Shown: positions 9,729 through 30,884 of the stretch, in pieces
How the letters are laid out: every line of letters starts with the position of its first letter
Numbering within the stretch: the stretch's first letter is position 1
Assembly: GCA_013791995.1 (NCBI GenBank)
Contig: VMSS01000075.1
Span: forward strand, 1 to 35,029
Origin: Desulfurivibrio sp.
GTDB lineage: Bacteria > Desulfobacterota > Desulfobulbia > Desulfobulbales > Desulfurivibrionaceae
Direction of reading: 5' to 3'
DNA: 35,029 nucleotides
Program-made: the position numbers and the translations under genes
Notes under the pieces: generated by a model
The model's database searches: none
Seen by the model: only the letters and a program-made list of their open reading frames with translations
Told to the model about the DNA's origin: nothing

Positions 9729-9968
9729 GGTAACTACCCTGCAGCGCCGCATCTGCTTTGTTATCGGCCTGCTCACATAGGCTGGCTATAGCTCGCAGGT
9801 CTCTTTCGCGCATCTACGGCACTGCAGGGCAGTTACCGTTGCATAATTTGCGTTCCTTCCCAGAGGCCTGTTCGCAGGTAAGCGACCACGGGAGACTCCG
9901 AAACACAAGGTATGCGAGCAGGCCGATGACAGCTAAGCGAACACAGTGAGACTGCGAGCAGATGCGGC
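9729..9968. repeat. Composite intergenic element with two interleaved inverted repeats
   Basis: IR1: 9729-9749 vs 9817-9837 (19/21 matches). IR2: 9746-9757 vs 9957-9968 (12/12) and 9763-9779 vs 9911-9927 (16/17). Arm order is IR1L-IR2L-IR1R-IR2R. Confidence 0.75.
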
Positions 9969-24458: not shown

Positions 24459-25895
24459 TTAGAGCATGGAGATCGGGTTGTTCCGGGTCACCACCACGTT
24501 TTTCACCAGAATAATCTTGGGATCATCAAGACTTCTCGCCAACTGGGTAAGCGACTGAAACTCCTGACGAAACTGGACCAACTGGGTTCCGGTCAACTGG
24601 GAACGCGGCCGAAACTTGACATTGAAGGGGTTTGCAAACACACCGTTCTGCGCCATCCGGTAATCAAGATGCGGTCCGGTGGAGATACCGGTGGAACCGA
24701 CATAGCCAATGATCTGCTTTTGATAGACCTTGGCTCCGGCCTTAATATTACTGGCGAATCTGGAAAGGTGCCCATAGTAGGTCTTGTAGCCGCCGCCATG
24801 ATCAAGAATGATCTGCTTGCCATAGCCGCCCCTCCAACCGGCAAAATTCACCCTGCCATCGGAAGTGGCCATGATCGGGGTGCCTGTGGGAGCGGCAAGA
24901 TCAACGCCCAGATGGGGGCGAACGATGTTCAAAACAGGATGGTAACGATTATAAGTGAAACCTGATGAGACTCTGGCCATGGGCACTGGAGAGCGGATGA
25001 ATGATTCGCCGAGTTCGTAGCCTTTTTGATCGAAATACGCGGTCCCCCCATTGTCTCGACCAAAATAAAAAGCTTCAAGCTGCCCGACTTCTTTGCTGTC
25101 GTAGCGTGCCACCAAGATCTTGCCATAACCGACAAACTGGTTGTTCTTGTAGTATTTTTCAAAAACCAGCTCAAAGGTGTCGCCAAATCGGGTTTCGGTG
25201 TTGAAATCGATTTTTGAAGCAAAGATATCGGCAAAACTATAAATGAGCTTGGGATCTTCGCGAAAGGCCGAAAGCGCAGCAAAAAGCGAAGACTCAACCT
25301 TGCCCTGCAATTTGACGGTGCGGCAATCAAGGGCAACATCAAGTTTCTTGGCCCTGTAAGCCCCCTCGGCAGTGCGTTCTATGGCATGGATATCAAGAGG
25401 ACCTGATTCGTAGAGGCATTTGACCAACCCCCCATCGTCATCAAGAGTGAGGGTGTACCGGTCGTTTGGTTTCATATCCCGAAAATTCACCACGCCGTCA
25501 AAGGCGGAGATCACCGACTGCCGCACCTCTTCTTCAACCCCATTGGAACGGAAGGAAGAAGTCAGCGAATCTCCAGGACGGATCTCCCCGACAATCTCCC
25601 GCACGTTGGGCAAGAACTCCTCTGTTTCGACGGATGTGTACGAACTGACCCCAGGTGCGTCCGGAATGGGGTTGCCATCCACGGCATAGAGAAAAAAGGC
25701 AACAACCAGCGCGATGGAAACGCCGATGGTGAGAAAATGCGAGGTGTTCAAGAAAAAAACCAGATGCCTTTTCGTGTGGTTATGGAAGCGGGAAACTCCA
25801 CGGGAAAGGGCCGTGAGGCACGGCGGGCATAATCGGGAAAGGACAGCTTTGCACGTTTTGCGAAAAACGGTGGATATGTTGATTTCTTTTGCCAT
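24459..25895 (-). CDS. M23-family peptidoglycan endopeptidase (MepM-like)
   Basis: N-terminal TM; C-terminal LytM core RPHLGVDLAAPTGTPIMATSDGRVNFAGWRGGYGKQIILDHGGGYKTYYGHLSRF (HxxxD and HxH). Confidence 0.92.
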   Translation of the reverse strand: MAKEINISTVFRKTCKAVLSRLCPPCLTALSRGVSRFHNHTKRHLVFFLNTSHFLTIGVSIALVVAFFLYAVDGNPIPDAPGVSSYTSVETEEFLPNVREIVGEIRPGDSLTSSFRSNGVEEEVRQSVISAFDGVVNFRDMKPNDRYTLTLDDDGGLVKCLYESGPLDIHAIERTAEGAYRAKKLDVALDCRTVKLQGKVESSLFAALSAFREDPKLIYSFADIFASKIDFNTETRFGDTFELVFEKYYKNNQFVGYGKILVARYDSKEVGQLEAFYFGRDNGGTAYFDQKGYELGESFIRSPVPMARVSSGFTYNRYHPVLNIVRPHLGVDLAAPTGTPIMATSDGRVNFAGWRGGYGKQIILDHGGGYKTYYGHLSRFASNIKAGAKVYQKQIIGYVGSTGISTGPHLDYRMAQNGVFANPFNVKFRPRSQLTGTQLVQFRQEFQSLTQLARSLDDPKIILVKNVVVTRNNPISML

Positions 25896-26046
25896 TCAAA
25901 ACTCTATTTTATGAAGATTTATGCGGACACTCACGCATCCATCTGGGTAGCACACTGGATAAACATCTATTATGTAGCAAAATCGGGCAGGTATTACAAG
26001 TTTCTTTTGCATTTTTTCTATAATTAATGATTCATCACAATCAAGA

Positions 26047-26091
26047 ATGAAAATAACGTCCAAACAATTTGTTCGGTTGAAAAAAAAATAA
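26047..26091 (+). promoter_or_regulatory. Possible lysine-rich leader peptide ORF (MKITSKQFVRLKKK) upstream of lysC
   Basis: 14-codon ATG ORF with 5 Lys codons, ending AAA AAA AAA TAA 31 nt before a terminator-like hairpin. No strong Shine-Dalgarno seen. Confidence 0.3.
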
Positions 26092-26122
26092 AATTGATGC
26101 ACACTGCAAATTCGGGATTTTT

Positions 26123-26157
26123 CCGGCCCCAATACGTGCGGGGCCGGATATTTTTTT
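26123..26157 (+). terminator. Terminator/attenuator-like hairpin in the lysC 5' region
   Basis: CCGGCCCC-AATACGTGC-GGGGCCGG followed by ATATTTTTTT; 8 bp perfect GC stem. Confidence 0.7.
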
Positions 26158-26164
26158 AGACCCT

Positions 26165-26183
26165 CGCCTGACGGCGGTTTTTT
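26165..26183 (+). terminator. Second short terminator-like hairpin in the lysC 5' region
   Basis: CGCC-TGAC-GGCG-G-TTTTTT; 4 bp stem followed by a T tract. Confidence 0.4.
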
Positions 26184-26213
26184 AACATTTTATCTCAGGA
26201 GCAGCAGGCAGCA

Positions 26214-27434
26214 ATGGCGTTAATAGTGCAGAAATTCGGCGGGACCTCAGTGGCTAACCCGCAAAAAATCAAAGCGGTGGCCGAACGGGTCATGGGCTAC
26301 AGCCGCAAGGGACACAGGGTGGTTGTCGTCCTCTCGGCCATGGCCGGCGAAACCAATCGTTTCGTCGATCTGGCCAACCAGATGCAGGCCATTCCCGACC
26401 CCCGTGAAATGGACATGCTCCTGGCCACCGGCGAACAGGCGACCATCGCCCTGTTCGCCATGGCGGTTAAGGACGCCGGGCTTAACGCGATTTCGCTTCT
26501 TGGCGATCAGGTAAAGATCACCACCGACCGGATGCATACCAAGGCCAGGATACAGACAATCGACTCGGATCTGATCAACCGCCACCTTGACGCCGGAAAA
26601 ATTGTGGTAGTGGCCGGTTTTCAGGGAGTCACCGAAGATGGCGATATCACCACTCTGGGAAGAGGCGGCTCCGACACCACGGCCGTTGCCTTGGCTGCCG
26701 CCCTGAAAGCCGATGAGTGCGAGATTTACACGGATGTGGAAGGGGTGTACACCACCGACCCCAACATCTGCTCCACCGCCAGAAAAATAGATCGTATTTC
26801 CTACGACGAAATGCTTGAAATGGCCAGTCTCGGCGCCAAGGTATTGGACATCCGCTCGGTCGGTTTTGCCAAACGTTACAAAGTACCTGTCCATGTTCGT
26901 TCCACTTTCACGGAAGCCGAAGGAACCTGGGTAGTAGAGGAGGATAAAGAAATGGAATCGAATCCGGTATCCGGAGTTACCTGCACCAAGAATGAAGCAC
27001 GCATCACCATCGCCAAGGTTCCCGACGTACCCGGCACCGCCTCGAAGATCTTCAATCCGATCACCAGCGAAGGCATAGTGGTGGACATGATCATCCAGAA
27101 TACTCGTGACGGCGCCCTCACCGACATGACCTTCACCGTGCCCCGCACCGATTATAAAAAAACCATGCAGATCATGGATCGGATCGTGGCCGAGATCGGG
27201 GCCGAAGGTGTGACCGGCGCCGAAAACATCGCCAAGGTTTCCATTGTCGGGCTAGGCATGCGCAACCATGCAGGCATTGCCTCCACCATGTTCAAGGTAC
27301 TGGCCCAGGAAGGGATTAATATCCTGATGATCAGCACTTCGGAGATCAAGGTCTCCTGTGTCATAGAGGAAAAATACACCGAACTTGCGGTTCGGGCCCT
27401 GCATGACGCCTTCGGGCTTGGAAAAGGCAACTAA
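26214..27434 (+). CDS. lysC: Aspartate kinase
   Basis: [64 protein letters not shown]-terminal ACT repeats. Confidence 0.97.
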
Positions 27435-27437
27435 AAC

Positions 27438-29030
27438 ATGGCACATCCAGTCGCTATCTACGACACCACCCTGCGGGATGGAACCCAGGCCGAGAATTTC
27501 AACCTCTCGGTGGAGGACAAACTGCGTATCACCCTGAAGTTTGATGAATTCGGGATCGATTTTGTCGAAGGTGGTTGGCCAGGCTCCAACCCCAAGGATG
27601 TGGAATATTTCAAAGAGATCCAGAATTACGATCTCAAACACACCAAGGTTACGGCCTTCGGCTCCACTCGGCTCTTCAGTAATCCGGCGGAGCAGGATCA
27701 TAATCTTAATGCTTTGATCGCTGCCAAAACTCCCGGGATCACCATCTTCGGCAAAACCTGGGATATTCATGTGCACGACGCCCTGCGCATCGAACTGGAT
27801 GACAACCTGCTGATCATCGAGGAGTCGCTGCGGTATCTGCGGCCCCATGCGCAATATCTTACCTATGATGCCGAACATTTTTTCGACGGTTTCAAGGCCA
27901 ACCCTGAATACGCCCTGACCACCCTGGATCGGGCTATTGCCGGGGGGGCCGACTGTCTTGCGCTCTGCGAGACCAACGGCGGCACCTTGCCCACCGAGCT
28001 TTCAGAGATCATTCAAGCGGTAAAAGCGCATCTGGCTGCGAAAAAGGTCGCGATCGCATTCGGAATCCACGCCCACAACGATTCCGAGTGCGCGGTGGCC
28101 AACTCCCTGATCGCCGTCTCTTTAGGAGCCACCCAGGTCCAGGGCACGGCCAACGGTTTTGGCGAGCGCTGCGGCAACGCCAACCTCACCTCGATCATGC
28201 CGGCCCTGGCATTGAAGATGGGCTACGAGTTTACGGCTTCGGCAAACCTGCACCGACTCAGCGAAGTTTCCCGATTTGTCTCCGAACTGGCCAATCTCTC
28301 CCCCAACAAATACCAGGCTTATGTTGGGCAGTCGGCCTTTGCCCACAAGGGCGGCATTCATGTCAGCGCCGTGCAACGCAACCCCCTGACCTACGAGCAC
28401 ATGGTGCCGGAAAAGGTGGGCAATGTGCGACGGGTGCTGATCTCGGATCTTTCCGGCAAAAGTAACGTGCTGGTCAAGGCGAAGAAGTTCGGTCTCGATC
28501 TGGACAGCAAGGATCCGGTGGTCAGCGCCATAGTCAAGGAGTTGAAAGATCTCGAGAATCAGGGCTTCCAGTACGAAGGGGCTGAGGCATCTTTCGAGCT
28601 GCTCATGCGTCGCGCCATGGGAACCCCGAAGAAATATTTTGATCTGCACGGCTTTCGGGTGATCAGCCAGAAATCTCCGGACGGCGTGCTTCAAGAGGAA
28701 GCCACCATCCGTTTGGCCGTGGGCGGAGAAGAGGTGCACACCGCAGCCCATGGCAATGGCCCGGTCAACGCTCTGGACAAATCGCTTCGCAAAGCGCTCA
28801 CCCAGTTCTATCCGAATCTCAAGGAGATGGAATTACAGGATTACAAGGTGCGGGTGCTGGCCAGCGAACACGGCACCGAGGCCAGAGTCAGGGTGCTGAT
28901 CGAATCCCGCGATCAGGACTCCATATGGGGCACGGTGGGAGTTTCTCCGGATATTATCGAGGCAAGCTGGCAGGCCCTGGTGGACAGCATCAACTACAAA
29001 CTCATGAAGGATGAGCGAAACAAGCAGTGA
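27438..29030 (+). CDS. cimA: (R)-citramalate synthase
   Basis: [79 protein letters not shown]-terminal LeuA dimer/regulatory domain. Confidence 0.94.
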
Positions 29031-29511
29031 TACCGGGAAAAAGGACCTGCGCCCTTTGGTGCTCGTCCTTTTCGCCCTGTGCATCCTGATCGCTGCCGCA
29101 TTCCGTGCGGGTTGGTTTTCCCTTCTTTCCGAACAACAACCCGCCGCCCCGCTAAAACTTGCCTGGTGGGATGGCTCCGTTGCCACCGGGCTCTATCGGG
29201 TGCCGACTGATTCCGTGTACCCGACGCGTAAAGAACAGGCACAATCCGAACCAACTTCCGCCCAAGAAAGCCAATCTTCGGGAACCCCCCCAGCCAGACT
29301 GGCCCCCCTGTTTTTCAAACCCATCCCCATCAATCAAGCTGATGAAGCACTGCTGACCACCATTCCGGGTATCGGCCCGGCATTTGCCCGGCGGATCATT
29401 GCATTCAGGAATCAGCAGGGCAGGATTAACGCCATTGAGGAACTGGATGCGGTGGAGGGTATTGGCCCGGCCAAGCTGAAGATTCTCAAGGCCAATCTTA
29501 CCGTTGATTAA
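29011..29511 (+). CDS. ComEA-like helix-hairpin-helix protein with N-terminal TM
   Basis: N-terminal TM ([21 protein letters not shown]) and C-terminal [57 protein letters not shown]; 20 nt overlap with cimA. Confidence 0.85.
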
Positions 29512-29532
29512 AACGTCCTCATAAAGCAGGTG

Positions 29533-29611
29533 CTTCGACAGGCTCAGCACGAACGGAAGTGTAGACACAACATACTGTCAGGAGGTACCGTTCGCCCTGA
29601 GCCTGTCGAAG
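29533..29611. repeat. Intergenic inverted repeat pair, same family as 4980-5041
   Basis: CTTCGACAGGCTCAGCACGAACGG (29533-29556) and CCGTTCGCCCTGAGCCTGTCGAAG (29588-29611). Confidence 0.88.
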
Positions 29612-29639
29612 GGGCTTTTTTGAGCACATCAAGAATCTA

Positions 29640-30884
29640 CTACGCCTCAAAAAGTCGCCCCTGAACCAAACATTTCCCCAACTCCCGGTACACCTCCCGA
29701 AGCCGCGCCCTCTCAGGATTCTCGCCAAGCGCCCGGATAATCCTCCGGGACAACGGCCCCTGCGCAAGAATGGCCTCCACGCTCTCCTGGATAGCATGTC
29801 CGGCTCCAGCCAGTTCTTGAGCGCAATCCGAGTCAAGTTCCCGCCATAACTCTTTCGAAGTCATGGTGGCGTTCCTACCCCTGCCAAACAGAGCCAGGTA
29901 ACGGTGATCGTCGATCACCGTCTCTTCACCGTCCTTGATCGTTTTAACAAAAATCTCAGCCAGAGGTCCGGTTGTCGCCGCCTTCTGTTCCTCCAGCCCG
30001 GACCAACGCTCTTCAGTCAACCCCTTGAGCACCGCGCTGATCAGCACGCTTAAAGAAACGTCGGCCAACGGGCATTCCTGAATATCCAGAACCCGGATCT
30101 CAATGGCGTTGCGATCGAAGCGGGCGATAGCCCCCCGGGAGTTGAGCCATTCCGCTTCCAGAATCCCGTTCGGATCGTGGGACGCGATGTCACGGCGCAG
30201 GGGGGTGTATATCGCCTGCTCATAGTCGGCCTCACTGAAAACCGGCTCCGGGATCACCTGACTAGTAATGAAGGGAATACGTTTTTGATTGTTTCGGTAA
30301 TACTCCAATCGGGAGTCCAGCCACCCGGTAAGCGTGCCATCCACTGCGGGCGAGCTTGCGGCAATGGCGGGGAGGATGGGAACCAGCACCCGGATCGCCG
30401 CGTGCAAACGGCCGAACTCTTCGTCCGTGGCAAAACCCAGATTGAGATGGGTGGACTGCACATTGGACCAGCCATGGCCCTGGCAGTTGAAGATTAGGTT
30501 GTAGGTGTTGTAAATATCTTTGTTGCCGTGGGGCCAGAGGTGGGTTTCGGTGTGCGGGTCCATCCAGGGGTGCATGGCGGTAGGCAGGAGAATCGCCCCC
30601 TGTTCGTTTGCAAGCCGGGAGATTTCCTTAACCTCTTTCTGGAACTTCTCCACGAGCATCGGCAATCCGGAAACCGGACCGCTGTTTTTGATCTCGATAA
30701 CATGCAGGGCCAGCTCATTGGACCAGGCCATGATGCCGCGCTCAACCTCGTTGGTGACAACACCCGCTTTCTGTTGCAGAATACGATCGGCAATGGGTGC
30801 CACATCCAGGGTGTCCTCGCGGACCAGCATGTACTCCAGTTCAATCCCGAACTTTTTAAACAATCCGGACTGACTCACGCCCAC
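29640..30884 (-). CDS. Glutamate-cysteine ligase family 2 (GCS2)-like carboxylate-amine ligase
   Basis: FGIELEYMLVRE; LLPTAMHPWMDPHTETHLWPHGNKDIYNTYN; HLNLGFATDEEFGRLHAAIRVLVPILPAIAASSPAVDG; RFDRNAIEIRVLDIQECP. Confidence 0.85.
   Translation of the reverse strand: MGVSQSGLFKKFGIELEYMLVREDTLDVAPIADRILQQKAGVVTNEVERGIMAWSNELALHVIEIKNSGPVSGLPMLVEKFQKEVKEISRLANEQGAILLPTAMHPWMDPHTETHLWPHGNKDIYNTYNLIFNCQGHGWSNVQSTHLNLGFATDEEFGRLHAAIRVLVPILPAIAASSPAVDGTLTGWLDSRLEYYRNNQKRIPFITSQVIPEPVFSEADYEQAIYTPLRRDIASHDPNGILEAEWLNSRGAIARFDRNAIEIRVLDIQECPLADVSLSVLISAVLKGLTEERWSGLEEQKAATTGPLAEIFVKTIKDGEETVIDDHRYLALFGRGRNATMTSKELWRELDSDCAQELAGAGHAIQESVEAILAQGPLSRRIIRALGENPERARLREVYRELGKCLVQGRLFEA

Follow-up and report, generated by a model that had tools for sequence, protein, structure and literature searches.

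Premature termination of transcription in 5' UTRs is widespread in E. coli and has been mapped there genome-wide (PMC7815308); the promoter-proximal terminators concerned lie between promoter and coding sequence, and many of them have no known sensor. Classical leader-peptide attenuators, such as those of the trp, his, leu and ilv operons, combine conserved peptides, repeated codons for the regulatory amino acid and alternative terminator and antiterminator hairpins (PMC1262725). The lysine riboswitch (L box, RF00168) has lysC as a target and stops transcription before this gene in some hosts, and T-box leaders (RF00230) carry a terminator in the leaders of amino-acid genes. Here, we describe the leader of lysC, which encodes the enzyme that opens aspartate-family synthesis, in a window of 35,029 nucleotides (the whole stretch of DNA analysed) from Desulfurivibrio sp., a member of a poorly studied group for which a literature search on the regulation of lysC-cimA returned nothing useful. 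An initial annotation of this DNA had tentatively read the leader as lysine-responsive, peptide-based attenuation; comparison with related genomes replaces that plausible but apparently wrong account with a model of a promoter followed by a terminator.

The window encodes a monofunctional aspartate kinase, lysC (26214-27434, plus strand; NCBIfam NF005155, 7e-189, and TIGR00656), followed after a gap of 3 nt by the citramalate synthase gene cimA (27438-29030, plus strand; NCBIfam TIGR00977, 1.7e-227), and the two genes probably form one operon. A Shine-Dalgarno-like AGGAG (26197-26201, plus strand) is kept upstream of the lysC ATG in the genus alignment. The neighbour on the other side encodes an M23-family peptidoglycan endopeptidase (24459-25895, minus strand; Pfam PF01551, 4.9e-33), and 29 of 33 loci examined, drawn from several families of the order, have an M23 homologue as the divergent upstream neighbour of lysC. 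The earlier statement that no plus-strand gene directly precedes lysC thus holds, and the strong hairpin ahead of lysC (hairpin 1) is therefore not the terminator of an upstream gene; it faces lysC only, and a minus-strand terminator scan of the M23-lysC intergenic region found nothing. A second conserved block, kept in most genus genomes, reads as a good candidate promoter for the divergent M23 gene (25971-25999, minus strand), with TTGTAA (25999-25994), a 17 nt spacer and TACATA (25976-25971). Upstream regions for comparison were collected with the lysC protein as query, within the same family and then the order; the family sample comprised 14 genomes of the genus with a complete upstream region (window included) and five other genera, and loci on the minus strand were reverse-complemented before alignment.

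Hairpin 1 (26122-26148, plus strand) has a 9 bp stem, TCCGGCCCC/GGGGCCGGA, with arms at 26122-26130 and 26140-26148, a loop of 9 nt and a folding energy of -19.3 kcal/mol, and the adjoining T tract TATTTTTTT (T-A-T7; 26149-26157, plus strand) completes an intrinsic-terminator-like site. This is the strong 8 bp hairpin with T tract initially described at 26123-26157; it is present, with the small correction that the stem starts at 26122. The hairpin occurs in 12 of the 14 genus genomes and is lost in L008 and L013, and a terminator with T tract at -10 kcal/mol or better is found in 10 of 14, in L010 by way of a second segment. Across the 12 genomes that keep it, 94.4% of the alignment cells pair and three of the nine pairs carry two-sided changes; the covariation score was reached by 3 of 500 shuffles, and with the 3' arm slid out of register no more than 63% pair. 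Hairpin 1 is thus real beyond chance. With the hairpin gone from two of the 14 genomes, and the adjacent T tract lost or degraded beside a retained stem in L011 and L012, the terminator has disappeared or decayed in 4 of 14 genus genomes and thus appears not to be essential.

L011 and L012 can also be taken to favour a different role, in which the chief effect of the hairpin would be to stabilise the lysC-cimA mRNA at its 5' end, or to act on translation, with the T tract incidental; a position about 10 nt from the predicted 5' end would suit this as well. Against it, most genomes, and other genera too, keep the T tract next to the stem, and we regard such a role as quite improbable. As a terminator, hairpin 1 has the GC-rich stem and T7 tract of promoter-proximal intrinsic terminators, lies before the first gene of the operon as in leader-peptide attenuators, and sits downstream of the putative promoter of the gene and away from the end of any upstream gene.

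Leader hairpins of such strength are not rare: in 0.8 Mb of a same-genus genome, for which genes were called by a rough home-made procedure, 9 of 160 divergent gene starts have a leader terminator at -15 kcal/mol or better (about 6% of comparable starts) and 19 of 160 at -12 kcal/mol, and it is conservation that makes hairpin 1 credible. Among lysC upstream regions of the order, 19 of 64 contain a terminator at -10 kcal/mol or better, compared with 6% of dinucleotide shuffles. This count is not independent, since the sample consists of related genomes with too large a share from the genus, and many of the 64 regions have none.

A second hairpin (26165-26183, plus strand) had been annotated as a further attenuator element. 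It is present, with arms of 4 bp (26165-26168/26173-26176; -6.4 kcal/mol) followed by G and T6 (26178-26183), and it proved weak and lineage-specific: the segment is absent in L006, L007, L009, L014 and L015, and the hairpin is weak or missing in L003, L004, L011 and L012. A simple terminator scan of 24500-30500 reported 8 sites where 7.5 are expected, so that hairpin 2 by itself is indistinguishable from chance, and it was rejected as an essential second attenuator. L004 and L009 carry, between the terminator and lysC, similar segments of about 50 nt whose ends (GAGGCT...) form an imperfect inverted repeat.

Upstream of hairpin 1 lies a core-promoter-like block (ATTTGTTCGGTTGAAAAAAAAATAAAATTG.TGCACACTGC; 26066-26107, plus strand) that is near-invariant and free of indels in the 14 genus genomes. 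The block, ATTTGTTCGGTTGAAAAAAAAATAAAATTGTTGCACACTGC, is almost unchanged in the genus, whereas the length of the linker upstream of it varies, and each of its halves has its sole exact copy in the genome here. It contains a candidate -35, TTGAAA (26077-26082, plus strand; 14/14 in the genus, TTGCAA in genus g5), and a weak candidate -10, CACACT (26100-26105, plus strand; 12/14 in the genus), and their 17 nt spacing is kept in 15 of 15 genomes, namely all 14 of the genus and L016 of another genus. DNA conserved with such fixed spacing is as expected of a -35/-10 promoter, and the best reading of the block is as the lysC core promoter, with transcription predicted to start near 26110-26113. The candidate -10 matches at three of six positions, and because of this weakness a simple sigma-70 scan did not report the promoter. 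Aligned by eye, the genus block TTGTTGCACACT corresponds to the extended -10 TTGTTACATACT of genus g4.

A comparable putative promoter is seen in other genera and families, with an A tract, a weak -35, a 17 nt spacer and an extended -10 of the form TTCTTGG/T-TAnnnn. The distance from this -10 to the start of the terminator is 40-44 nt in genera g2 and g4, which belong to the same family as the window, and also in g19 of family f14, and 21-35 nt in f3g26; the leader sequence between promoter and hairpin is unconserved between genera. Genera g3 and g6 (L018, L021-L024) are without the hairpin-1 terminator and share CTTGATTTTTCC...TATGAT-like blocks, which look like a different lysC promoter. A natural long-leader variant is seen in L007 (genome G014), which carries about 150 nt of inserted sequence between the promoter block and hairpin 1 and keeps both hairpin and T tract. 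When the genome was searched for a regulon of the promoter block, with patterns at 2-3 mismatches, matches apart from the lysC site were scattered and background-like. A palindrome, CCAAACAATTTGTTCGG, at 26060-26076 was considered as an operator and rejected, its left half being unconserved.

We therefore read the region as a promoter-proximal intrinsic terminator in the lysC-cimA leader that serves as a conserved brake on expression, and give this reading, with promoter function, start site, termination in vivo and the brake itself all taken as predictions, a probability of roughly 0.68. The lysC-cimA transcript would start at the conserved promoter about 10 nt upstream of hairpin 1, and RNA polymerase would meet the hairpin and T7 soon afterwards; some transcripts would be terminated at a length of about 45 nt, while others would read through into lysC. 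Hairpin 1 thus probably stops part of transcription before lysC. With a start near 26110 the hairpin would begin about 10 nt into the RNA, so that neither a peptide nor an aptamer could fit before it, and any input to the brake would be neither a leader peptide nor a riboswitch.

The feature that had suggested a leader peptide is a 14-codon ORF, MKITSKQFVRLKKK (26047-26091, plus strand; ATG at 26047-26049, TAA at 26089-26091), which does end in three AAA codons and a stop, as first described, about 30 nt before the strong terminator-like hairpin. On the peptide reading, ribosomes stalled at these lysine codons would favour an antiterminator and let transcription enter lysC, and the C-terminal reading QFVRLKKK recurs in several relatives, in consequence of the conserved DNA block. 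The alignment of lysC 5' regions, proposed at the outset as a check, bears out hairpin 1 and fails to bear out the small ORF, its lysine codons or hairpin 2. Only 2 of the 14 genus genomes, the window and its closest relative L003, have the ATG, the site reading GGAAAAT in most of the others; no common start was found among the genus genomes when all frames were read, and no Shine-Dalgarno sequence precedes the ORF in the window, in line with a caveat attached to the original proposal. Homopolymer changes in the block put the AAA run out of frame in L008, L010, L011 and L013, and the linker from the divergent promoter block to the AAA block ranges from 43 to 153 nt among the genus genomes and takes all values modulo 3, so that they share no conserved in-frame run of regulatory lysine codons. 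The AAA run sits between the candidate -35 and -10, and the conserved spacing places the predicted start, near 26110, downstream of the whole ORF.

The apparent lysine codons are thus best read as the end of the -35 followed by an A-rich spacer, and a lysine leader peptide MKITSKQFVRLKKK is rejected on the unconserved ATG, frame and lysine run. The ORF, given that it is not conserved, is judged no more than a chance occurrence inside putative promoter DNA. The initial annotation had tied its proposal to conservation of the small ORF in relatives, and in the genus comparison the ORF is unconserved; what survives of the attenuation idea is an attenuator-like terminator in the lysC leader, conserved, covarying and placed after a promoter-like block. 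Of the parts of the trp-, his-, leu- or ilv-type attenuator, which likewise combines a leader terminator and T tract with a short ORF containing codons for the product amino acid of the operon, the window keeps the terminator alone: the start and frame of the ORF are unconserved, the ORF overlaps the putative promoter, and no conserved antiterminator was found. Judged from these comparisons, lysine-responsive peptide attenuation of lysC is not supported and appears exceedingly unlikely. The case carries a caution, that a lysine run beside a terminator can be a -35 and its A-rich spacer.

The folding analysis agrees with the earlier caveat that no convincing antiterminator could be seen: neither folding nor RNAalifold yielded a conserved, mutually exclusive antiterminator in short or long leaders. 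In the short leader, forbidding hairpin 1 costs 14 kcal/mol in the window, and the penalty is 4.6 kcal/mol or more in all genus genomes tested apart from L007, the one with the insert. In long leaders, with a simulated start further upstream, several species have folds lacking hairpin 1 within about 1 kcal/mol of folds that contain it, as would be expected if the conserved block were an RNA element (an aptamer or antiterminator) of a longer transcript and not a promoter. Such alternatives of similar energy differ from species to species, however, L002 and L003 have no such competitor, and the two-sided changes that RNAalifold reports over the longer region are confined to hairpin 1, so that the consensus fold carries no compensatory change elsewhere. 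The fixed -35/-10-like spacing also suits a promoter better, and we consider an RNA element of this kind very improbable.

Known RNA families gave a consistent picture. No Rfam family reached its gathering score in the window, and nothing meaningful matched the leader at E<=5. The lysine riboswitch RF00168, which shares its target gene with this leader, matched neither the window nor 27 family genomes while control genomes matched, and the lysC leader here is without that aptamer; the T-box RF00230, which shares the arrangement of a terminator in an amino-acid gene leader, had no match in the 27 family genomes although the B. subtilis control matched, and the leader here is in any case too short for it. 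In 20 upstream regions of the order, the only match to a known RNA family was one to a c-di-GMP aptamer, on the opposite strand in L145 (44-122, minus strand). This c-di-GMP-I-GGC riboswitch-like match lies near lysC in a family f11 genome, and its 52.2 bits fall slightly short of the gathering score.

Should the terminator be regulated, then, neither a peptide nor a riboswitch would be its input. Termination might instead be decided by a protein that binds the RNA or the polymerase, by a small RNA, by the choice of start site, or by slippage at the T5 run that follows the start, tuned to the supply of aspartate-family amino acids or isoleucine. It would fit such control that lysC-cimA is an amino-acid biosynthesis operon, that promoter and terminator are kept together in several genera of two or three families, and that the conserved TCGGAATTTTTCCGG around the predicted start can fold a small competing hairpin in about half of the species. 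In the short leader, however, hairpin 1 is by far the stronger of these two structures, the sequence from promoter to hairpin is unconserved between genera, and no known RNA element was found, so that we consider attenuation by another input a tentative and rather unlikely alternative to the reading of a brake that may have no input at all. A broader version, in which lysC of several families of this order of Desulfobulbaceae-like bacteria has a conserved promoter-proximal attenuator with no room for peptide or aptamer, termination being decided by a protein, start-site choice or slippage, is speculative and seems to us unlikely.

The lysC leader terminator can accordingly be placed beside the promoter-proximal 5' UTR terminators of E. 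coli (PMC7815308) as a further case of that type; it likewise lies between promoter and coding sequence, and differs in being predicted from sequence and in having a predicted leader of only about 10 nt before the hairpin.

We also noted a repeat, about 70-98 nt long (CTGTCCAGCAGCACCGCATCTGCG...), that is dispersed over many sites within the 0.8 Mb from a same-genus genome. Its sites include a 35 nt match in the window (9741-9775), two in L036 (2783-2880 and 6276-6373), and others in L154, L163, L171, L180, L185, L192 and further loci; in genome G011 a copy is inserted between the M23 and lysC promoters. The CTGTCCAGCAGCACCGCATCTGCG repeat is possibly a small mobile element.
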